Source: Cristatella mucedo (Eukaryota; Bryozoa; Phylactolaemata; Cristatellidae). Taken from it: 64,000 nt of DNA. The stretch lies in assembly GCA_009760855.2 (NCBI GenBank), contig WPIO01000061.1, positions 1,069,501-1,133,500 on the forward strand, in the 5' to 3' direction. Positions 4,458-63,713 of the stretch are shown piece after piece; the stretch's first letter is position 1, and each line of letters starts with the position of its first letter. Below the pieces are notes generated by a model, which worked only from the letters and a program-made list of their open reading frames with translations, had not been told where the DNA came from and searched no databases. The position numbers and the translations under genes are program-made.

Positions 4458-4790
4458 CCGTGGCTCCAAGAGCTCTTCATCGTGGCTCAAAGCTGGCGCT
4501 CTCCGTCATGGCTCCGAGCGCTCTCGGTCGTATCTCCGAGCTGGCGCTCTCCGTCCGAGCTGGCGCTCTCCGTCCGAGCTGGCGCTCTCCGTCGTGGCTC
4601 CGAGTGCTCGCCATCGTGGCTCCGAGCTGGCGCTCTCCGTCGTGGCTCCGAGCTGGCGCTCTCCGTCGTGGCTGGGAGCGCTCTCCGTCGTGGCTCCGAG
4701 CTGGCGCTCTCCGTCGTGGCTGGGAGCGCTCTCCGTAGTGGCTGGGAGCTGGCGCTCTCCGTCGTGGCTGGGAGCGCTCTCCGTTGACTT
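4458..4790. repeat. GC-rich minisatellite (about 24-27 bp unit)
   Basis: Tandem array built on a GAGCTGGCGCTCTCCGTC core joined to GTGGCTCC or GTGGCTGGGA. It has roughly 12 irregular units with unit-length variants. On the minus strand an open frame runs from 5053 through the array to 4487 (188 codons). It has a hydrophobic Leu-rich N-terminal stretch (LSLCLVLLLRL) and repeats such as ATTESASSEPRRRALP. I cannot say whether this is a gene; an array of this kind often stays open in several frames. Confidence 0.75.
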
Positions 4791-7900: not shown

Positions 7901-8304
7901 TATAGATTAATGCCACCATTGGCAGCTAGTTGCCAAAAGAAAAATAGATTTGAAAGACTGCTTCTGGGGGATTGCAAACAGTTTGAAATCGAGGAAGAAA
8001 CATGTGACAATGACGGCTTTTCCACTAGTTTTTATCAAGGGATATTAAAGAGAGAGAAGCTTGTATTCATGGCGACAGTCCTGGTCAGACTGTTAGTCGA
8101 CTTCAGCCCTCAAAAAGGTTGTAGTTGTCGTCAAAAACCACGTCGTGTATTGTTAAGGGTTTATTGCACGCTGAGCGAGAATTTCAAAGACCAGTAGAAG
8201 ATAAATTGTAAAAATGCACATTCTTGGTTTTGGTCCCGCTACTATATTACTGCTTTTACATCGGTGCATGAATCGGTGCCGCTTCTGCCACTCATACAAA
8301 TATA

Positions 8305-8457
8305 ACTAGTTTTTATAGCGCCCTAAGAGAACTTAATCTCTATTCAGTCACTTCAAATAAGCCACGGGGCTCGAGCCCATGACCTCAGTAGTCAAATAAA
8401 TTCACCGTTACCTCGATTTGGGCGAGCACCGCAACCACTGGGCCAAGCCAGCTTCAA
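8305..8457 (-). mobile_element. SINE-1 (tRNA-derived, L2-like 3' end)
   Basis: Read on the minus strand: box A (TGGCCCAGTGG-type), a GCTCGCCC-type linker, box B (GGGCTCGAGCCCC type), then AATAGAGATTAAG and TTCTCTTAGGGCGCTAT. It lies in the left flank of the first Ser-rich repeat locus. A copy occupies the same place beside the second locus, so it predates the duplication. Confidence 0.75.
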
Positions 8458-8985
8458 CGCAAAAGTAAGAGCGACAACTGATACATCTATGTAAGGACTA
8501 TCGTACATTACAGAGGCTGCATTTTATGGATGGTACAAATATCTCGTCCAGAGGCCACTACGTACGTTCTTTTAAATAGCAAATCTCTTCTGAAAACTCG
8601 CTAAATAAAACTGTTTCTATTTTCACAATTGACACGAAATTTTCAATGCTTATTGTATCTCTAAGTGAGATTAAATTCGATCGCTAAAAACGTGCAAACA
8701 TGAGAAATTTAAGGAGCAATCATTATTACCAATAAAATTTAACGTCTGTTGGACAACACCGAAAAATGTGCTTATCAAGTTGAATTACCTGAGCATTCAA
8801 GGACCTGCCAAAGCCACAAGTTTGTACTTGAAATGGGAAGGCAGCAAACGTTATCCGCGTTCGAATATTGTTCTCACATTGCTCTCGGACTTGACCAAGC
8901 TAGCTAGCAAAGGAAGCGTCGTAACAGCACAGCTGTCATGATAGTAGTCGTCGACAATTAGCCGACAGTTGAGCTAATGCGTCCT

Positions 8986-10302
8986 TCAGTACCTCGGCCT
9001 TCGAGTTGCGGCACCATTCCGATACACTGTTCTCCGTGTCGTAGCTCGCCTCGCCGTTCGCGGTCGAGCCAGTGTCGTCCTTCGGCGCCGGACGGCTATC
9101 AGGGGGCTCAGAAGGAGTGCAGCTCGGCCTCTCCGACTACTCTCAGCCGCGCTGCTGCCCGAGCCGCTGCTGCAGTAGCTCGACGGAGGGCGGCCCGTCG
9201 GGCAAACGCAGCCGCCATCGCTCGAGGTGCACTCCGTTGAGCTGAGATCGAGCTGGTGCGATCGAGCGCAGCTCTCTAGCGCCGCTCCTCCTCCGTAGCC
9301 GCTGTCGCTCGACGATGCAGCTCTGCCCTCTGTCGAGCTCAGATTGGATACCTCGTTCGAGCCAGCGAAGGACGTCAGCGCTCTGCCATAGCCGTCCTCA
9401 CGGAACGAGCAGCAAGCTCGAGAACTGCTGTGCGAGCTCGACAAGGAACTGCCCTCTGCTGAGCTCAGATTTTCCTCTGTCGCTCTCAGAATGTCCCCTG
9501 TCGCGCTCAGACTGCCCTCTGTCACGCTCAGACTGTCATCCTTCGTGCTTAGACTGTCACCCGTCGTGTTCAGACTGTCCTCTGTCTTGCTCGGACTGTA
9601 CTCTAACTCGCCGTTGTGGTCTTTATTGCTAGACCAGCCGGACTCCATTGTTTTCTTGACGTAGTTCGACCAAACCCTCGATGGTGTTGAGATGTGACTG
9701 CCTGCAAAGCTGCCGTTGGTGTCGTGGCTTTATGAGCCGTGCGCATCGAAATATTCTTCATTACAGATCGGACCGTACTCGGTCGTAATGCTATGGTCGT
9801 TATTGCATGATAGCAAGTACCCCATTGCTTTGCTGGGGCATTGCAACCATGCAATGCGATCTACCGAACGGAGGATCTCTGAAGATCTGTAGCTGGTGTC
9901 GAGGCTTGAAAAGCTGAAGGCATCGGAACTGTCATCTGTCAAACTCGAACTGTAATCTGTCGCGCTGCTGAGGTCGTCGTGGCTCGACCAGCAGTGCTCT
10001 GGCACGTCGCTGATGTCCGAACGTCGTGTAACGCCTCCCATTGAGCTGCAGCTATCAGTGAAGCTGCTGGTAGCGGTAGAGCTTGAAGCACTGTACGTAG
10101 GGGTGGCACTGTCCTCCATCGATCTGGGGTGATAATCTGTCGAGCTGCTTCTGCGGTTGTCGTGGATTTTCCGGCTGTAACCTGTCGAGCGCTTGCCGGA
10201 GCTCGACCGAGCGCCGCACTGTGACGAGCTGCTCGCGCGTTGGCCTACGCTCTGCCGGTCTACTTTCTTATCGTTCATCCTTGTCTTTTTCCCGCTCGCC
10301 AT
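8986..10302 (-). pseudogene. Ser-rich heptad-repeat protein, copy 1 (one in-frame stop)
   Basis: One continuous minus-strand frame of 438 codons from an ATG at 10302 to a TGA at 8986, broken only by a TAA at 9732-9730. The order is: basic N-terminus (MASGKKTRMNDKK); a Ser/Asp-rich region with paired (S)DISDVPE.CWSS motifs; about eight 7-residue repeats of the form TEDSLS(A/T) at 9449-9612; a conserved block (SRACCSFREDGYGRAL, SSSDSGYGG, CVCPTGRPPSSYC); and an Arg-rich tail. There is no signal peptide or membrane segment. The paralogue at 21.5-23.6 kb has sense codons at the stop, so the TAA is probably a derived lesion, but two shorter proteins or readthrough cannot be excluded. I recognise no family. 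Confidence 0.6.
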
Positions 10303-10555
10303 ACAGCGATTGCTGAGGAATTGAAGCGTTCAAAAGCCACAGCATACATTCATGCAGACGTATATTTAAATTCCAAAGCTTTATAAATGCCTCTAGGACT
10401 TTCTTAGTATGATGACACTTTGGTGGAAATTCGGCGTCCACCTGACATGTCGGATTTCGGCGATGTGCGTGAACTACTTTCTCCGTTTTTTTCCTTCCCT
10501 TCACAGTTCAAAATCAAGGTTCAACCTTGAAATTCTAATACGGTGGCACGACATT

Positions 10556-13782: not shown

Positions 13783-14724
13783 GTGTAATGTATCTCCGTC
13801 TGTAGTTCCACAAAGCCATAAAGACTATAGAGTTTTGTATAGCCCTCTCACAGCCTAAGCGGCTTTCGGCAGCTTTCGGTAGCCAAAAGAATTCGTCTCA
13901 CGAAACAAAGAGAAAGTGGGAAGCATAGCAGAGTCAGGAGAACAGTTGTGGTAGTGAGTAGCATGGAATCTGCAGCTCAGGACCGCTGAAAAGGATGAGC
14001 CATAGTCGGCAGCAGAAGAGTAGTTGTCGTTTCGTAAGAATTGTGGAAGCGAGTTCCACAGTCTAGGACCTGCAGAGCTAATGCTTCTGTCGCCAACGGT
14101 CTAAGCAGAGAATTGGAACAGCTAATTTATTGTCTACACAGGACCTGAGGGCTCGAACAGGCTGAAACTGGTGCAGAAGTTCAGCTAGGTATGAAGGAGC
14201 CAAGCCGTGGCGGGCCTTGTGGGTCAGCGTAAGAACTTTGCTCTGTATCCTTTAATCAACCGGCATCCATCCTAGCTCTTTTAGCAAAGGAGACACGTAC
14301 TAAAACTTCTGGGACTTGAAGACCAGCCTTGCAGCCATATTCATAGTCTGCTGCAGTGGCCTAGTTGCTTTCTTTGGTAGCCCAATCAAAAGGGAATTAC
14401 AATAATCAAGCCAAGACAGAACTAAGGAGCTAGTTTAATTTTTGCGAGCCACTGCGAAGGACAGCTCCAAACTGGGATAGGGATCTGACGTGATGGCTAG
14501 CTGTAGAAGCAGTCTTCTGAATGAAGCTTTTAAGATTGAAGCAGCTGTCGAAAACGACACCTAAATTTTGAGCACGTGGTGATGGTCGCACGACAGCATC
14601 ACCTATTAGAAGAGCAAAGCCTTTTAATCCAGCCACACGTTTAGGGTGTCCTATGAGCAGCAGTTCGCTTTTATCGTCATTTAGTTTCAAGAAAATTTCT
14701 GACATCCAGGATCGAATGTCGGCC
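13783..14724 (-). mobile_element. L2-A LINE, RT 3' part and 3' UTR
   Basis: Minus-strand copy of the second LINE lineage. The 3' UTR has GGAGATACATTAC and the AAGCCGCTTAGGCTG region. The RT C-terminus includes TVGDRSISSAGPRLWN-type coding, and the 5' limit is at the FLKLNDDKSELLLIGHPKR segment (14650-14700). Frames are interrupted. It ends abruptly at 14724 by 5' truncation. Confidence 0.85.
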
Positions 14725-19945: not shown

Positions 19946-20619
19946 GGTCGATTTCAGCAGGTCTGTCTTTTGATAACCTTACCAAATTCACGTATCTGCC
20001 GAGTTCGCAAGTTTTCTAATTCATCTTCTTCCTTGGCATGCGTGCTATTCCTTGATCACGTAATAGGCCGCACTTTTGATCAGGTATTTTCCCTTAGTTG
20101 TCATCTGTCAACTCCAGTTACAACCAATTCCTGCATATATGAACGCATGCGGATCTCGATCTCTCTATAGAATCTATCAAACTTTGTAAAATAAAGTCTA
20201 TTCAAATAGCAAAACCTATAGAAACTTGGCTTTGAAAAAAAAATTATTTAACCATTATAATCTTCAATATTTCTTCTCCATTGTCTACGATCTCCCTTAT
20301 CAGTTAGATTGTTACATAAAGCACGATAATCTTGAAGAGTTCGCTCCTGTTATTGTGCAGGTCAGCTATTTTCTCCGACAGGATCTTGAAACTGATGCTC
20401 AATGAACTAGGTTAAGACTAAAATTTAAAAAGATTATAAAATGTTCCTGACTTATAATCATTTAGAACCGCATTAGCTATATAAATCTGCTTGTCTTAGT
20501 CCGCTGCTTCCGTCTGCCTCACTTAGGTCTGATCAAGTTCTGTTCGGCTGTAAAATAGAGTTATAGGTTAAGAAGACTTATAAATGAAATTCTTATAAAT
20601 ACTTCTTCTTTGTAGCGGT
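19946..20619. other. No gene recognised
   Basis: AT-rich sequence between the hAT relic and the second duplication block; no recognised feature. Confidence 0.35.
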
Positions 20620-20777
20620 TCCGCTCCTGTCCTATTGTTTCCACATCGGTAGATGAATTGGTGCAACTTCTGTCCCTCATAAAAATACAACTCCTTTGTA
20701 CTGATTGTACTTTGACTGATTAACCACGATAAACAAGGGACAACTGTATGTTAAGTATATGCATACATACATATATA

Positions 20778-20925
20778 TGTAATTCATTTGCGGAGCGTCC
20801 TAAGAGAACTGAATTTATATTCAGGCGCTTTACAAAAGCCACGGGACTCTAGCCCCCCCCCGACCTTAGCCAGACCTTGATCGAGGCGAGCACCTTAATC
20901 ACTGGGCCTAACCAGCACTGCAATG
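20778..20925 (-). mobile_element. SINE-1 (tRNA-derived), duplicated copy
   Basis: Minus strand: box A (GGCCCAGTGATTAAG type), box B region (complement of GGACTCTAGCCC), and a TTCTCTTAGGACGCTCCGC 3' end. It is the positional counterpart of the copy at 8305. A partial second tRNA-like head (TCTGGGCCAAGCCAGAG region) follows at about 20950-21000. Confidence 0.7.
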
Positions 20926-21535
20926 TGCTCGTCCATGTGAAACATTTAATTTTACCTCGGCCTAAGCGAGCATCTTTACATCTGGGCCAAGCCAGAGTGG
21001 CATTTGCCCTGCCTCGAGGTTAAAGTACGAACGGCAACTGATACATCTCTGTAAGGACATCTCTGTGAGGACTACCGTGCATTACGAGCGCTGGGTTCCA
21101 CACTAAAACTCCTTTGTTCAGAGGCCACTATATGCGTTGTATCAATAGTATCTCTTCAGTAAACTCGCTATATACAAAACTTTCATTTTTCACATAGGAC
21201 ATGTAATTTTCGATGCTTACAATATCTCTAAACGAAATTCAAGTGCTATTAAGGTGCAAGCATGAGAAATTTAAGGAGCAATCATTATTATCAATTTCAT
21301 TTTATGTCTGATGGATAACACTGAATAAATATTTGCTTATCTAGTTGAATTTCCCGAGCCTTCAAGGATCTGCCAAAGCCACAAGTTTGTACTTGAAATG
21401 GGAGGCCAAAAAAGGTTATCCGCATTCGATCATTGTTTCTCACCACTTGACAAAGTCAGCTAACAAAGGAAGCGTTGTAACAACGCAGCTGTCGTGGCGT
21501 TAGTTGTCGATGTCGATGATTAGCATATAGTTGAG

Positions 21536-23637
21536 CTAACGCACCTTTCCGTGCCTCGGCCTTCGAGTTGCCGAACAATTCTGATACACTGTTCTCCATT
21601 TCGTAGCTCGCCTAGCCATTCGCGGTCGAGCCAGTGTCGTCTTTCGGCGCCGGACGGCTACCAGGGGGCTCAGATGGAGTGCAGCTCGGCCTCTCCGACT
21701 ACTCTCAGCCGCGCTGCTGCCCGAGCCGCTGCCGCAGTAGCTCGACGGAGGGCGGCCCGTCGGGCAAACGCAGCTGCCGTCGCTCGAGGTGCTGCTGCAC
21801 TCCATTGAGCTGAGATCGATCTGGTGCGAGAGAGCGCCGCTCTTTGGCGCCGCCCTGCCGCCGTAGCCGCTGTCGCTCGATGATGTAGCTCTGCCCTCTG
21901 TCGAGCTCAGATCGGATACCTCGTTCGAGCCAGCGAAGGACTTCAGCGCTCTGCCATAGCCGTCCTCACGGAACGAGCAGCAAGCTCGAGAACTGCTGTC
22001 TGAGCTCGACAAGGAGCTGCTCGTTATCGTGCTCGTATTGCCCTCTGTCGTGCTCAGACTGTTCTCTGTCGTGCTCGTATTGCCCTCTGTCGTGCTCGTA
22101 TTGCCCTCTGTCGTGCTCAGACTGTTCTCTGTCGTGCTCAGGCTGTTCTCTGTCGTGCTCAGGCTGACCTCTGTCGTGCTCAGGCTGACCTCTGTCGTGC
22201 TCAGGCTGACCTCTGTCGCGCCCAGGCTGACCCCTGTCGCGCCCAGGCTGACCCCTGTCGCGCCCAGGCTGACCCCTGTCGCGCCCAGGCTGACCCCTGT
22301 CGCGCCCAGGCTGACCCCTGTCGCGCCCAGCCTGACCCCTGTCGCGTCGCGCCCAGCCTGACCCCTGTCGCGCCCAGGCTGACCCCTGTCGCGCCCAGCC
22401 TGACCCCTGTCGCGCCCAGCCTGACCCCTGTCGCGCCCAGCCTGACCCCTGTCGCGCCCAGCCTGACCCCTGTCGCGCCCAGCCTGACCCCTGTCGCGCC
22501 CAGCCTGACCCCTGTCGCGCCCAGGCTGTCGTCTGTCGCGCCCAGGCTGTCGTCTGTCGCGCCCAGGCTGTCGTCTGTCGCGCCCAGGCTGTCGTCTGTC
22601 GCGCCCAGGCTGTCGTCTGTCGCGCCCAGGCTGTCGTCTGTCGCGCCCAGGGTCGTCTGTCGCGCTCAGGCTGTCGTCTGTCGCGCCCAGGCTGTCGTCT
22701 GTCGCGCCCAGGCTGTCGTCTGTGTCGCCCAGGCTGTCGTCTGTCGCGCCCAGGCTGTCGTCTGTCGCGCCCAGGCGGTCGTCTGTCGCGCGCCCAGGCT
22801 GTCGTCTGTCGCGCCCAGGCTGTCGTCTGTCGCGCCCAGGCTGTCGTCTGTCGCGCCCAGGCTGTCGTCTGTCGCGCCCAGGCTGTCGTCTGTCGCGCCC
22901 AGGCTGTCGTCTGTCGCGCCCAGGCTGTCGTCTGTCGCGCCCAGGCTGTCGTCTGTCGCGCCCAGGCTGTCGTCTGTCGCGCCCAGGCTGTCGTCTGTCG
23001 CGCCCAGGCTGTCCTCTGTCGCGCCCAGGCTGTACTCTGTCGCGCCCAGGCTGTACTCTGTCGCGCCCAGGCTGTACTCTGTCGCGCTCAGGCTGTACTC
23101 TGTCGCGCTGCTGTGTTCATCATGGGTCGACCAGCAGTAATCCGGCATGTTTTTGTTGCAGTTCAAGCAAAGGTTGCATAATGTCGAGATGCGTCTATCT
23201 GCCAAGCTGCTGTCGCTGGTGTCATGAACTGGTGAATTTCGCTCTTCGAAACTGTCTTCAGCCGAGCTCAAATGAGACTCTGTGGCGCTGCTGCAGTCGT
23301 CATAGCTCGACCAGCAGTACTCTGGCACGTCGCTGATGTCCGAACCTATAATGCCTCCCTTTGAGCTGTAGCTATCTGTGAAGCTGCTGGTAGCGGTAGA
23401 GCTTGAAGCACTGAAGGCAGCGGATTTGCTGACTCCAGCGGCAGTGTCCTCCGTCGAGCTGGGGTGATAATCTGTCGCGCTGCTGCTGCTGCGGTTGTCG
23501 CGGCTTTTCCGGCTGCAACCTGTCGAGCGCTTACCGGAGCTCGACTGAGTGCCGAGTCGTGACGAGCTCCCGCGTTGACCTACGCTCTGCCAGTCTGCTT
23601 TCTTATTGTTCATCCTCGTCCTGTTCCTGCTCGCCAT
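21536..23637 (-). pseudogene. Ser-rich heptad-repeat protein, copy 2 (frameshifted array)
   Basis: The ATG at 23637 opens a frame of 323 codons: basic N-terminus MASRNRTRMNNKK, Ser/Asp-rich region with two DVPEYCWSS-type motifs, then heptads SATEYSL, GATEYSL and many GATDDSL. A 2-bp gain near 22789 switches the reading to RQTTAWA heptads, and a TGA at 22666 ends it. Further on, a 2-bp loss near 22650 and a 5-bp gain near 22331 are visible. The C-terminal part (SRACCSFREDGYGRAL, CVCPTGRPPSSYC, Arg-rich tail, stop at 21536) stays open in a frame shifted by exactly the net 5 bp. A frame of 699 codons including stop would result without the three indels. Whether they are real or assembly errors is not decidable here. 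Confidence 0.6.
22026..23112. repeat. 21-bp coding minisatellite, about 51 units
   Basis: Units of 21 bp in blocks of variants. From high to low coordinate: CTGTACTCTGTCGCGCCCAG, then a long CTGTCGTCTGTCGCGCCCAG block, then a CTGACCCCTGTCGCGCCCAG block, then CTCAGACTGTTCTCTGTCGT types. On the minus strand each unit codes for one heptad (GATEYSL, GATDDSL, GATGVSL, STTENSL). The paralogous array at 9449-9612 has only about eight diverged units, so the expansion is specific to this copy. Confidence 0.95.
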
Positions 23638-23702
23638 GCGGCGATTTCTGAAGAATTGAAGCGTTCAAAAGGCACAGCATACATTTATGCAGACATACAT
23701 TT

Positions 23703-25086
23703 GTAATGTATCTCCGTCTCTACTCTAACTTCACAAAGTCACAAAGACAATGAGGGTGTTACCCAGGAGAGTTTTGTATAGCTTACTCACAGCCTAAGCG
23801 GCTTTCGGTACGCATTCGGTAGCCAACAGACTTCTTCTCACGTAACAAAGAGAAAGTTGGAAGCATAGTAGAGTCAGGAGAGCAATTGAGGTAGTGAGTA
23901 GCATACAAGTAGCAGCTCATGACCGCTGAAAAGGACGAGCCATTCATTGTCGGCAGCAGGAGAGTAGTTGTTGCGTATGAATTGTGGAGGCGAGTTCCAC
24001 AGTCTAGGACCTGCAGAGCTAATGCTTCTGTCGCCAACGGTCTTTAAGCGGAGGAATGGAACAGCTAATTTATTTTTCACACAGGAAATTAGGGCGCGAA
24101 CAGGCTGAAACTGATGCAGCAGTTCAGCTAGGTACGAAGGAGCCAAGCCGTGGCGGGCTTTGTGGGTCAGCGTAAGAACTTTGCTCGGTATCCTTTAATC
24201 AACCGGCATCCATCCTAGCTCTTTTAGCAAAGGAGACACAAACCTCTGCGTCTTGAAGACTAGCCTTGCAGCCATATTCATAGTCTGCTGCAGTGGCCTA
24301 GTTGCTTTCTTTAGTAGCCCAGCCAAAAGAGAATTACAATAATCAAGCCAAGACAGAACTAAGGAGCTAGTTTAATTTTTGCGAGCCACTGCGAACGACA
24401 GCTCCAAACTGGGATAGGGATTGGACGTGGTGGCTCGCTGTAGAAGCAGTCTTCTGAACTAAACTTATAAAATTGAGGCAGCTGTCGAAAACGAAACTTA
24501 AAAGAAATTTCAAGCACGTGGTGATAGTGGCACAACAGCATCACCTATTAGAAGAGCAAAGCCTTTTAATCCAGCCACACGTTTAGGGCGTCCTATGAGC
24601 AGCAGTTCGCTTTTATCGTCATTTAGTTTCAAGAAGTTTTCCGACATCTAGGATGGAATGTCGGCAAGGCAAGCATTCAGTTCTCAGTTGCTGCAGCAGA
24701 TTCCGACGGTTTAAATAACAAATACAGCTGAGTATCATCAGCATAAAAGCGATATCCTATTCCATGGGCCTTAATCGCTTTTCCCCGCGGTTGACTATAA
24801 ATGGAGAACAGCAAGGGACCGTGTACAGACCCTTGAGGGACTCCACAGGTGACCATTCTCTTGTGTGAAACCTGACCCCCACACGACACAGATTGAACAC
24901 GATCATACAAGTACAATTTTAACCACGCCAGTGCTTCGTCTGCCTGTGATCGTTGTTCTCAATCGTTCAAGCAGAACATCGTGATCAATGGTGTCGAAGG
25001 CAGCTGATAGATCTAGCAGAGCTAGGGCAGCGACATTCCCGTCATCATTACCGCGTATTTTGTCATTGTTAACAAAGCTTTCCAAA
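23703..25086 (-). mobile_element. L2-A LINE inserted in duplicated block
   Basis: Minus-strand L2-A from the 3' UTR (AATGTATCTCCGTC at 23706) through the RT C-terminus to the RT palm (TCGVPQGSVHGPLLFSIY, FYADDTQLYLLF at about 24730-24760) and ALLDLSAAFDTIDHDVLLERL-type coding near 25000. The right limit is set by the paralogous empty site. It is 5'-truncated and has stops in the RT C-terminal part. Confidence 0.85.
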
Positions 25087-25636
25087 TTTCTTTAGGACTT
25101 TCTAACAATATGATGACATTTTGGTGGAAATTCGGCGTTCAACTGACATGTCGGATTTCGGCGACGTGCGTGAACTACTTTCTCCGTTTTTTCTTTCTTC
25201 CCTTCACAGCTCGAAATCATGTTTCAACCTTGAAATTCGTGCGCTATTGTAATAACCCATGACATTGCTGTGCTTCTCTTGAGTCAACATACTGGCTAGA
25301 TAATCTTTGATAACCAAGAGTTTGAAAGTCTAAGTAGGTAGCAGAAGGCAAGATATGTGCTACCGCTCTGATTTCTACTTGTATTCTACCGGAGGTCTAT
25401 CAACTCCATACAGACTTTTAAGGCAGGCGTATGCAATTTATATTGCCTTTGCACTATAAAGAAAGATCAGGAATCTATCTAGCGCGACGATTCGGCGCTA
25501 ATGCCCACAATAATTACGGTACATAAATCCCCGTTTTTCGGAGATGCTCGCTTCACACTACCTGAGCTGCAAGTGCTTCGTATCCGCACGCATCTCGCTT
25601 CTCTACGGTTTGCCATAGGCAGGGCTAGCTCATTCA

Positions 25637-26545: not shown

Positions 26546-28842
26546 ACTTATATCGTCATAGTGCTTCTATAAAAGATATAATTATGTTAACATAGCAATG
26601 CAGTGGTACAAACAGAATTAATACCAAGAACTACTAGCCTCACAAACGAGTGGAATCCGTACAGAAACTCAACCTATTTAGCCTCCATCAACTCTATTAC
26701 TCCCCCTTTAGCATCACCTTTTACCTTACCTTAACTTACTCCGTTGCCTCATTTTTTTCAAATAGAAAGGTGCTAGCACTTTATTGCACAGGTCGTGGTT
26801 TCGATTAACAGTTCTAGTGTTGCTGCAGGCAATTCATTTTTTAAAACAGGAGTGATTGCTATTTAAAAGCTGAATAATTTAAGCTCTAATTCAACTCGCC
26901 TTATCCTTTACCTTGCCTTAAACCCACATGAAGCTCAAGGATTTCACGCGTGATTGGTGGCCAGTTAGGAACGTGAAGTGAAGGATTAGCAACGAGAGAG
27001 AGAGCGAGAGAGGGAGAGAGCTAAACTAAAACTAAATGACCGAACCATTTTAATCGTGCTTCTTTCACTTTCATGTAACGTGTAAAGCGCCCGGAAGAAA
27101 GATTCAGTGAGTTCAAAAGTTCAAAAGTTCAGTGAGAGCACTATGAAATTGTATCACTATGATTCTAGTACCTCAGAAGGTGGATGGACGTCTGCAGCCT
27201 TATAATGCTTCAAAGAGCTGCAGCGTGCGGAGGAAACTTCATATAACTCGACTAGCGATTCCTGCATGCATCTTTGTATGTAATGCCACAGATGCCGTTA
27301 GGACTCGTGTTTACAGCGTTAGAGTTTTTCGCTAACCCATGTAAAGCCCAAAAGTAAGCCAGTTGCTTACTTTTGCCCCCCCCCAACCAGAACCTGCTCG
27401 AGGGGGAGCTGGGCGGGACCCGGAGGCATGCATAGAATAGAATGCGAGGGGCAATGCCCAGGGCACACTGCAGGCGTCCAATGCTCCAAGCGAAGCGAAC
27501 GTGAAAATGGCGTCAGAAAAACTCGACGCAGACTCGCGTCGCGCTTCGCTCTATCTAGCGAGCCAACGGTGCAGTGCCCAGCCGCACGGGCGGTCGCTCC
27601 TGCGGCTGCTCGACCTCGGCCTCGGCCGCTGCAGCTCTGGCTGCACTGTTTAACCTGCGACCGCGCGTGTCCTCGCGCTCGCGGCCACCGGCGTGCGGTA
27701 GAATGGTCGTGTGGGTAAAATGGTCGTCGCTCAGCGCTCAGGTATTTCGTCGCGAGCGACTGTGCTAGCCGCGCGTGCCACCGCTGACCACAACATGCGA
27801 CCGCAGAATGAGCTGCAAGAACGCACGCGCGCACGCGCGCACTCACGCACACGCGAAAATGCAGGTGCCCAGCTTGGTTCAACGACTACTTACTTTATGC
27901 GATGCGACGATGGTGAAGCACCTCGGAGGGCGGGGTGCTTCATTGAAAAGTTTGCGACGATATGAAAACGCAGGTCAATTTCTGAGGAGGCGGCTTTAGT
28001 AGACGGCTTTGAAGGCGGCGAGAACGGAGCGCCTGTCCATCCGTCAACTGTCACGGACTGCTCCCCGCTATAAGCATAATGAGACTGGACCGGAAGTGAA
28101 AGTGGAGACTCGAAACGACATTTAAAGAAATTACATTTACGGTACTGATGGTAGTAAAAAGAAAGTAATCTCATCTTTATATTTTTGCCAGGCCTCTGTA
28201 TGTATTCAGCAATGTCGCTTAAAACCAGACTGCTAGCTGCCGCAACGCGCATACGGGAAGTAGCTAATGGAGCTCGCATGAGCTTGCCCGCTAAGACTTC
28301 CCTGTAGTGGCAGTCGAAAAGCAGAGCATTACGTACGGCGCATTGCGGACTTAATTGGGTCTGTTACTCTCCGTACCGCAAACCGGGTCGAAGGGCAAAG
28401 GCCCAGTGACTTTGCACAGCGACTGTAGCTGAAAGATGCGTTGCGAAAGTTTCGAGTCGAGCGGGCCACTCGCCGCAACTAGTTGTGCGAGGAAGTGGGT
28501 CGCGTGAGCCTAATGGTCTCTCAGGCTGCACAGCTTGCCGCGCGGCCGCGTCTTCAGAGCAGTTCACTAGCATGTTGACGTGTCTCAATGAAACGAGACT
28601 GGGCTTACAGGTCCTTACACGCTCTAACCTGTAGGTCAAATTAAGTATCAAAGGATTACCGCGTCATTCTTGTCCAAGATGGCTGGGGGCAGGCTCTTCG
28701 CATGACTTTTTTTCGCTTTTTCGATGGCTTTTCGCAGTTACGCTCGCCACTGTGGCTGGGCGAACGAAACAGACAGCGCCGAACTACCTCCAACCCTCCT
28801 CCGCCTTAGCCCAGGGGTGAGGCGTTCGCTCTTCACTAACTG
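26546..28842. other. No gene recognised; CpG-rich segment and a LINE-type stub
   Basis: Positions 27065-27160 contain a diverged L2-like 3' end (GTGTAAAGCGCCCGGAAG). Positions 27360-27860 are strongly GC- and CpG-rich with a CGCACGCGCGC tract and open frames on both strands (171 codons minus, 96 plus), none recognisable. This could be a promoter-type CpG island, but no exon was identified beside it. Confidence 0.35.
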
Positions 28843-29539
28843 AGAAACTGAATGCTTGCCTTGCCGATATTCGATCCTGGATGTCGGAAAACTTCCTGAA
28901 ATTAAATGACGATAAAACCGAACTGCTGCTCATAGGAAACCCTAAGCGTGTGGCTGGATTAAAAGGCTTTGCTGTTCTAATAGGTGATGCTATTGTGCGA
29001 CCTTCACCACGTGCTCGTAATCTAGGTGTCGTGTTCGACAGCTGCCTCAATTTCAAAAGCTTCATTCAGAAGACTGCCTCTACAGCTAGCCATCACATCC
29101 GATCCCTATCGTAGATTAGAAGCTGTCTCCTACAGTGGCTTGTAAAAAATTTAACTAGCTCTTTAGTTCTGTCTGGGCTTGATTATTGTAATTCCCTTTT
29201 GGCTGGGCTGCCAAAGAAAGCTATTATGCCACTACAGCGGACTATGAATATGGCTGCAAGGCTGGTCTTCAAGTCCCAGCGGTTTGAGCACGTGTCACCT
29301 CTGCTGAAAGAGCTAGGATGGTTGCCGGTTGAGCAAAGGATACAGAGCAAAGTTCTTACGCTGACCCACAAGGCCCGCCACGGCCTGGCTCCTTCGTACC
29401 TAGCTGAACAACTGCATCAGTTTCAGCCTGTTCGCGCCCTCAGGTCCTGTGTGGAGAATAAATTAGCTGTCCCATTCCTCCACTTAAAGACAGTTGGCGA
29501 CAGAAGCTTTAGCTCTGCAGGTCCTAGACTGTGGAACTC
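28843..29539 (+). mobile_element. L2-A LINE, 5' part of a split copy
   Basis: Plus-strand L2-A from KLNACLADIRSWMSENF-type coding through the RT C-terminus to GPRLWNS. It is interrupted after GTGGAACTC at 29539 by an L2-B element. The same L2-A resumes at about 30925. There is one stop at the LS* position near 29110. Confidence 0.9.
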
Positions 29540-32942: not shown

Positions 32943-45816
<12,874 letters not shown>

Positions 45817-45900
45817 GGCACGGCCAAAAGTGAGCGATCGGGAGCCTTGGGACGCCCACTTCAACGAAAGCAAAGAATTGGAACAGCTGTGATAAGTCAA

Positions 45901-47868
45901 AGATCACTGACCTGGTTCATATTTTCTAGCTCCACCCTTCGCCACGCCCCTGGTGGTTTCGCCCAAAGCCCAGCGGCACAGAATCCTCAAAAGAAGTCCA
46001 TATTTTTCGTCTTGAAGAACCAGAGCCCAATAAGAGTGGATAGCGTGGTGAAACGAAAGCCTACTCATGTAGGTCGATTGCATGCGGGCTGGTACAGCTC
46101 CTTTCCTCAAAAGCTGGTAGGAGCATCCTCGAGAGGGGCGTGTGCACAGCTGTGGTCCGCTTCTAATGAGGTGTTGACACAGGCCGATAACCCGCTGGTG
46201 AACAGATGGTGGATTCACCATCAGGGTCGGCCAAGGGACAGCCGGAGGCGAGGAGAGGAGACTCGAGTGTGAGTAGGGGGTGAAGGCAGTCGTGCGTCTT
46301 GCAGCTCCGTGCCTTGTGCAATAAACCGTTGGCGTTGTTCATCGGCAGGCTTTCTGATGTGCGAACCAAACTACAGCACAGACACAAGTATTCGCTGGGC
46401 CGATAATATCAACCGAAAAGGAAGCTTATAGCAGGAATTGAAGGAGCCGGGTCCTCGGGACGTACGCCACTTTCGGCGGCATGCGCATGCGCCCGCCACC
46501 GTATGTACACGATGTATGTATGTGTGTGTGCACGATCGCAGAGGTGGCGACAGCCAGCCGACTGATCCCCCAGACAACCGACTTCGCAAAGCGGCCCCCC
46601 CCCCCCGCTGCCGGTGCGTCATCATCCTCCGGCGTCTGCGCTCACCTCTCTCGCATCTGCCTGCGGCCGCTGTGTTGGTCCTGCCCACTCTTCCTTCGTG
46701 TCGTCCCAACAGCAACTTACGGGTTTGAATCGAAAAGCAAGTCACCGGGCCACCTACGCTTGTGTCGGCGGCCCGCCTAACGGTCGAGTTGGGTCAAACG
46801 TGCGAAGTATGAGTCTTATGGGGAAAACTACCAGTGTGTGTCTCTTAGGCTCGAAGCTGCAGGTACATGTCGGTTACATAGTTCTACCGGATAAGCAAGA
46901 CCGTTGAGTGACACTTCTAACGACTGCCAAGGAATGTGCTTGTACCATTGCCGTCAAAACGGCACCGGCACAATCACCGTTATGGTGTTTGATCGCATTC
47001 GATCGCGAATGGTCTGGTTTTGATCGTGATTCGAGCGTGGATAGCCTTCAGCAGCCACAACGCACACGTTCAGGTCAAGAAATTGCATGCGAGTAGTGTT
47101 CGCAGAAAAACACTTTTCTCGGTCAGGGTACTTTATTTGAGTGCACCGGATGAATAAATATGTAGGTGGATGCTATTCGCACATACATACGTGGATATAC
47201 ACTATGAGCACCTCGTTAGGTACCCATGTTTTTGTTTCGCTTCACGTCGTTGGTCTAAAGCTTAATAGCAATGCGTTTGAAGCCCTTCAACAGGATTACA
47301 ACGAAGCACCTCTTAAAAACCTGCATTATAACCGGTGCATCGCTGCGTAGTTTTGTTAGCGTTCGGTACGTATCGATTTGATAGGCAGTGTTTTAGCAGA
47401 GATGACAGTCTCTATAGGTTGAGCTCTCTCGAATGGCACCCCGTTTTCTAATTGCAGGTAGACAGAGAGCACATTGCTCTCGCATTCCTCGAAGTGTTGG
47501 GGGGGGGGCGTGGGAGTCAGATGCCAAGAGGCGAAAAACAGCACAGACTTCGTGACCACTAAATAGTCACCGATGGATATACCTAGGCCCATGCTCAACT
47601 ACGCCGAAGCAGGCGTCGGAAGGTTGTTCTGACTCGGCGGATAGTCGGAGCACTTTCACTAGGGCAATAGACAAAAGCTCTCTGGGGGTCTCTTTCGTCA
47701 GACGATCTAGCCACAGCCTAGCGTGTCGAGCAAGCCACGCCAGCTGCAACCTGACAGCAGCAGGAAGCCCACCATTGCACAGTCCAACTGACGACAGCTC
47801 TGCCGAAGTTCTATAGGCCGACTTCGCACCGAACAGCTACTACCATATCATAGCAGGAAACGACGGAT
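45901..47868. other. Intergenic region between YDJC and the ankyrin-kinase gene
   Basis: It lies upstream of YDJC and should hold its promoter and 5' UTR. Moderately GC-rich with a poly-C run near 46598 and a short (TG)n run near 46510-46530. Several 60-140 codon frames on both strands have no recognisable content. Confidence 0.4.

Positions 47869-47874: not shown

Positions 47875-63713
<15,839 letters not shown>

Follow-up and report, generated by a model that had tools for sequence, protein, structure and literature searches.

A tandemly duplicated serine-rich gene of the bryozoan Cristatella mucedo, most likely with growth of a coding minisatellite and subsequent loss of frame in one copy

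On the minus strand of a 64,000-nucleotide stretch of Cristatella mucedo DNA (contig WPIO01000061.1, positions 1,069,501 to 1,133,500; hereafter the window, in whose numbering all positions are given), a frame starts with an ATG at 23637, passes through a long array of heptad repeats, and ends with a stop at 21536, being interrupted on the way. The question raised by this locus, here called copy B (21536..23637), is whether it is a gene that was read until recently, a sound gene misread in assembly, or DNA that lost its coding function long ago or never had one. Most likely it is an unnamed serine-rich gene, duplicated in tandem, in the second copy of which a coding minisatellite grew and the frame was then, recently, lost.

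The array occupies 22027..23109 on the minus strand, where TRF finds a 21-base unit in 51.3 copies, in agreement with the roughly 51 heptads of the first-pass annotation; translation and tiling divide it into blocks of EYSL, DDSL, GVRL, GVSL, ENSL and EGNT type. Tiling yields 52 rows. Apart from row 1 (20 bases), a tiling edge, and row 52, where the array exits in degenerate form, only rows 15, 22 and 36 deviate from 21 bases. Together with the sequence, the rows place a +2 length change at 22786..22792 (row 15/16, row 15 having 23 bases), a -2 change at 22648..22653 (row 22, 19 bases) and a +5 change at 22344..22352 (row 36, 26 bases), all on the minus strand and each within one unit. These sizes, summing to +5, are those annotated earlier, as are the positions of the first two (about 22789 and 22650); the third lies at about 22346 rather than 22331, some 15 bases away. 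The putative protein would be serine-rich and of low complexity, with a basic N-terminus and an acidic heptad array of DDS type. A second GC-rich minisatellite lies at 4459-4784, with units of 19-48 bases based on TCCGAGCTGGCGCTCTCCG and several frames open on both strands.

On three-frame translation, the start frame of copy B runs open until it meets a TGA close to the -2 indel, and the open frame of the C-terminal part is offset from the start by 2, as had been annotated. The length arithmetic is likewise right (2102 - 5 = 2097 = 3 x 699, stop counted). It had been put forward as a bookkeeping match that argues for a real gene; however, with both ends open merely the sum modulo 3 is tested, so the match is weak evidence, its prior chance being 1 in 3. 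Much of the array is also traversed by long stop-free runs in several frames on both strands, because the unit length is a multiple of three, and its openness is therefore little evidence. A coding minisatellite has many head-to-tail units whose length is a multiple of three, as here (21 bases, 51.3 copies), and an ORF open across the array, whereas the frame of copy B shifts within the array as assembled.

The paralogue reported at first pass is present as a diverged tandem duplicate, copy A, recognized by self-alignment and translation at 8986..10302 on the minus strand (439 codons, terminal stop included). Its short, diverged heptad array (9463..9604, minus strand) had been put at about 8 heptads and comes to about 7, TRF giving 6.8 copies with 77% matches; its frame is interrupted by an in-frame TAA at 9730..9732, codon 191 of 439, where copy A may be truncated too. 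With this TAA in copy A and the indels in copy B, neither copy is intact as assembled. A module of about 59 codons on the minus strand (C/GWSSxDDxSSAT...TEDS...DTS...I-S) seemingly occurs three times in copy A (9610-9990) and twice in copy B (23090-23330); it is weakly conserved and was spotted mainly by eye, and the heptads seem to arise from its second part.

Self-alignment shows the two copies to be alike in pieces over 8220-10535 and 20606-25238, including DNA on both sides of the frame. The upstream region of copy A (10374..10535) matches 25073..25238 of copy B at 88%, and the DNA downstream of copy B (20606..21535) matches 8220-8985 in pieces, with 24.5% divergence where aligned. Upstream, divergence is 12.3% over 65 bases and 9.9% over 162 bases; within the gene it is 14.2% in the N part, 7.6% in the C part and 36% in the middle. 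A young unprocessed pseudogene carries co-duplicated flanking non-coding DNA and frame-disrupting lesions, and both are found: the similarity continues up- and downstream, and copy B as assembled holds three indels together with the TGA that they bring about. Conservation between the copies is highest at 9064-9257 against 21626-21825, with 8 differences in 194 aligned bases, as gene conversion or non-coding constraint may lead one to expect.

Between copy B and most of its conserved upstream region lies a LINE fragment (23702..25073, minus strand), 65 bases upstream of the ATG and similar by self-alignment to 49471-50840, 36720-37600 and 13784-14723; copy A has no LINE at the corresponding place. 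A target-site duplication of at least 7 bases was not found around the fragment. The ORF at 49601-51082 in a related copy matches the reverse transcriptase domain RVT_1 of Pfam. One LINE family is represented in the window at 13784-14723, 23702-25073, 28838-29539, 36720-37600 and 49471-50840, with listed pairs about 86-97% alike, and one copy of the family carries a reverse transcriptase ORF of 493 codons.

That copies A and B once held a reading frame is supported by what was preserved beyond the array. Over the N and C parts, stops number 0 or 1 in the proposed frame and 3-13 in the two remaining minus-strand frames. All six internal A/B gaps within the proposed frame are multiples of three (3, 3, 15 and 3 in the N part, 6 in the C part, 3 in the middle), compared with 4 of the 10 gaps downstream (P = 0.026); neither gap in the 162-base upstream match is such a multiple, both being of 2 bases. 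The gap counts leave out end gaps (3 in the N part; 1 at column 2 and 12 at the end in the C part; 5 and 2 in the middle; 12 and 1 downstream). Under neutral simulation from copy A, 1.34 stops are expected in the N part and 0.99 in the C part, and the chances of none at all are 0.26 and 0.37, which are not small. Of the rows in this stop analysis, those from copy A and those for the N part were used; the row for the C part from copy B and the joint row began out of frame, with 4 stops at their start, and were left out. Because the frame is open, we infer a gene without introns. Two plus-strand frames were considered as genes and rejected, one in the C region (dN/dS 0.44) on account of 4 stop-bearing codon pairs, and one in the N region (dN/dS 0.61) on account of 8.

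Purifying selection at the amino-acid level was not found between the two copies: pairwise Nei-Gojobori dN/dS, computed without an outgroup and with copy A itself interrupted, is 0.90 and 0.85, and substitutions are spread flatly over the codon positions (16/19/17 in the N part, 17/9/10 in the C part). A disordered, composition-driven protein would be expected to keep its frame and not its sequence in this way, as would genes recently dead; the codon-position pattern could also have been flattened by gene conversion between copies A and B. The earlier claim of a real, recently coding gene thus holds for the frame, given the stop counts, the gap lengths and the restriction of each indel to one unit, but does not extend to constraint on protein sequence.

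Flat codon positions and dN/dS near 1 also suit a reading in which both copies are old pseudogenes, or non-gene, triplet-periodic GC-rich DNA, the open frame being a remnant or a by-product of periodicity. The TAA of copy A and the LINE adjoining the ATG of copy B fit it too, and by eye several of the gaps in multiples of three are GCA/CAG slips. We nonetheless consider it doubtful: the ATG and the frame outside the array are kept in both copies, save for one TAA; the alignable flanks carry no frameshift, whereas 6 of 10 downstream gaps are not multiples of three; and none of the 3 frame-breaking array variants recurs in a second unit.

The last point bears also on when the array broke. In the tiling, many frame-keeping substitution variants are common to blocks of units, and +2, -2 and +5 are each restricted to one; the indels are therefore younger than the local multiplication of units, or else errors. 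Were all three consensus errors of assembly in a GC-rich array, copy B would be a gene of about 51 heptads whose array is open. In favor of this, all three fall within the array, the alignable N and C flanks having no internal gap other than multiples of three, and single-unit indels are over-represented there: single-row events in rows 6-42 comprise 3 indels and 4 substitutions (3 and 5 if row 5 is counted), against 10 and 179 downstream (P = 0.007). This excess, however, is predicted by slippage as much as by sequencing error. A poorly read patch is mildly favored by the clustering of deviating rows in the DDSL block, five of which fall within 8 (rows 15-22) of its 23 rows, between the identical rows 6-14 and 23-28 (P = 0.04, the cluster having been picked post hoc). 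Set against this are the indel sizes of +2, -2 and +5, two of the three being by eye duplications of a CG-rich motif, which resemble replication slippage and not single-base homopolymer errors. Moreover, four of the five simple-repeat arrays examined in the window (two AC, CT and GGC) have no phase break, the AG array having two, and length errors are therefore not rife. Sizes and unbroken arrays together mildly favor real slippage, and assembly error as the whole explanation appears unlikely.

The first-pass annotation held that exactly three indels break what would otherwise be one frame of 699 codons. This looks incomplete as worded, since a fourth switch, of -1, some 41-45 codons before the end of both copies is indicated by a small codon log-odds model, for which the N part of one copy served as training set and the other copy as test. 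With a minus-strand-only (two-frame) background the main frame of the C part scores +59.1 (B) and +36.5 (A), and over the last 45 (B) or 41 (A) codons it falls to -20.0 and -16.8 while the -1 frame rises to +12.2 and +17.5. With a background of the five other frames, the main frame of the C part scores +34.9 (B) and +8.2 (A), the other five lying between +2.7 and -57.9, and of the six frames of the tail only -1 scores above zero, at +7.1 (B, one stop) and +12.0 (A, no stop), the rest lying between -4.2 and -23.3. The coding-like signal moves at 21674..21725 in copy B and, at the same place in copy A, at 9112..9163, both on the minus strand; 21676-21725 shows 0 differences in 50 between the copies.

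In a codon scan the best -1-frame tail stretch scores 19.3 (A) and 14.3 (B), compared with 30-codon windows outside both copies (in the window plus L004), 99% of which score below 10.4 and 99.9% below 20.3. Simple repeats (27 or more) and plus-strand frames over both copies (up to 23.0) also score high with the model, so that single-window scores are no proof. With the two-frame background, one plus-strand frame of the C part reaches +35.0 (B, 2 stops) and +24.6 (A, 1 stop), so the model partly reflects composition, which again suits old pseudogenes or non-gene DNA.

The switch occupies one and the same place in both copies and so probably predates their duplication; the original tail was probably a different one from the arginine-rich end of the 699-codon frame. 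The simplest explanation is a small ancestral indel. A switch of that age is a further point for old pseudogenes or non-gene DNA, and it runs counter to the reading of copy B as a recently broken gene, suggesting that the family was already altered. The switch might instead be functional, an intron or -1 ribosomal frameshifting joining the serine-rich frame to the -1 tail in both copies, which would be compatible with the other readings. The contrast in the tail between -1 and main frame under both backgrounds, and the identity of the copies at the switch, speak for it. Against it, RNA around the switch folds no better than shuffled sequence (z = 0.54 and 0.74), inspection by eye spotted neither a canonical slippery heptamer nor a plausible intron, the -1 tail of copy B contains a stop, and the ancestral small change is the simpler account. 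Programmed frameshifting was accordingly dropped for want of a fold signal, and a functional switch as a whole is very improbable.

Taking these lines together, we give about even chances to copy B being, in the one assembly examined, a copy, broken only recently, of a fast-evolving gene that encodes a serine-rich, low-complexity, disordered protein. This reading also draws on the LINE that parts the ORF of copy B from its upstream region, on the lower divergence of the DNA upstream (12.3% and 9.9%) than downstream (24.5%), and on the in-frame scores of the C part under the five-frame background. The order of events, as read from the DNA, would begin with tandem duplication of a gene-bearing segment into copies A and B, followed in copy B by multiplication of blocks of near-identical 21-base units and then by the changes of +2, -2 and +5 in single units. 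That in-frame variants multiplied and frame-breaking ones did not suggests that the frame was still being read as the array grew, through slippage or unequal exchange. The protein would tolerate nearly any missense change, since composition and not sequence matters in a disordered protein. At present the full protein would no longer be made by copy B, or would be made solely from other alleles. A more elaborate picture, which we rate as the most improbable of all, is of a gene pair that keeps its frame and is free in amino-acid sequence, with a conserved -1 switch, programmed or spliced, close to the end, and an array frame polymorphic between individuals. If that were true, one locus would yield alternative repeat proteins by allele, of DDSL or frame-shifted type.

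The libraries searched yielded no relative of the pair, which counts against the reading of a recently broken gene. At the DNA level, its own genome (572,011,866 bases in 688 contigs), queried with the N part and array of copy B (22100-23637), returned at least three matches, which comprise the query locus and copy A in two pieces. Three ORF pieces (two of copy A; the N part plus array of copy B) had no match in Pfam at E 0.1, and three pieces had none in NCBIfam; one piece queried against the PDB, the N part of copy A, found no match. Viral contigs held no relative of the C part of copy B, and phage sequences no match for its N part plus array. A Rubicon domain at E 0.44, from four pieces run against Pfam at E 10, was taken as a chance match and not credited. 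Elsewhere in the window, a YdjC-like gene (PF04794) is found on the minus strand in two exons about 9.4 kb apart, 45547-45903 (E 3e-15) and 35745-36110 (E 4e-4, below the curated cut-off), which cover consecutive profile positions, 2-50 and 53-91. A kinase-like exon suspected by eye at 54777-55823 was dropped, having no Pfam match and only chance matches in the PDB.

The locus is a compact setting in which to ask whether coding minisatellites expand under selection for frame and lose it afterwards, frame-keeping variants having multiplied here and frame-breaking ones not. It also carries a caution, that indel sums modulo three are weak evidence and that a coding signal needs checking along the whole frame.

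Among known systems, involucrin has a coding repeat that expands between related genes. Copy B resembles it in that a short in-frame array has become much longer in one lineage or copy and its flanks can still be recognized, and differs in being another protein and in that the grown copy has lost its frame. Its unit of 7 residues differs also from that of CEL, which has 11, and no sequence shared with CEL or MUC1 is claimed. Frameshifts within coding VNTR arrays are described for human MUC1 (ADTKD-MUC1), whose 60-base unit is again unlike that of copy B, and for CEL (MODY8) (PMC5843638, PMC7248079, PMC9379575, PMC8692231). With these two, copy B shares a coding minisatellite in which single units gain small frame-shifting indels; unlike them, it has three such indels in one assembled allele and is known from DNA alone. 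Copy B thus looks like an ordinary event of a known kind, with the C-terminal frame switch shared by both copies as an extra wrinkle.
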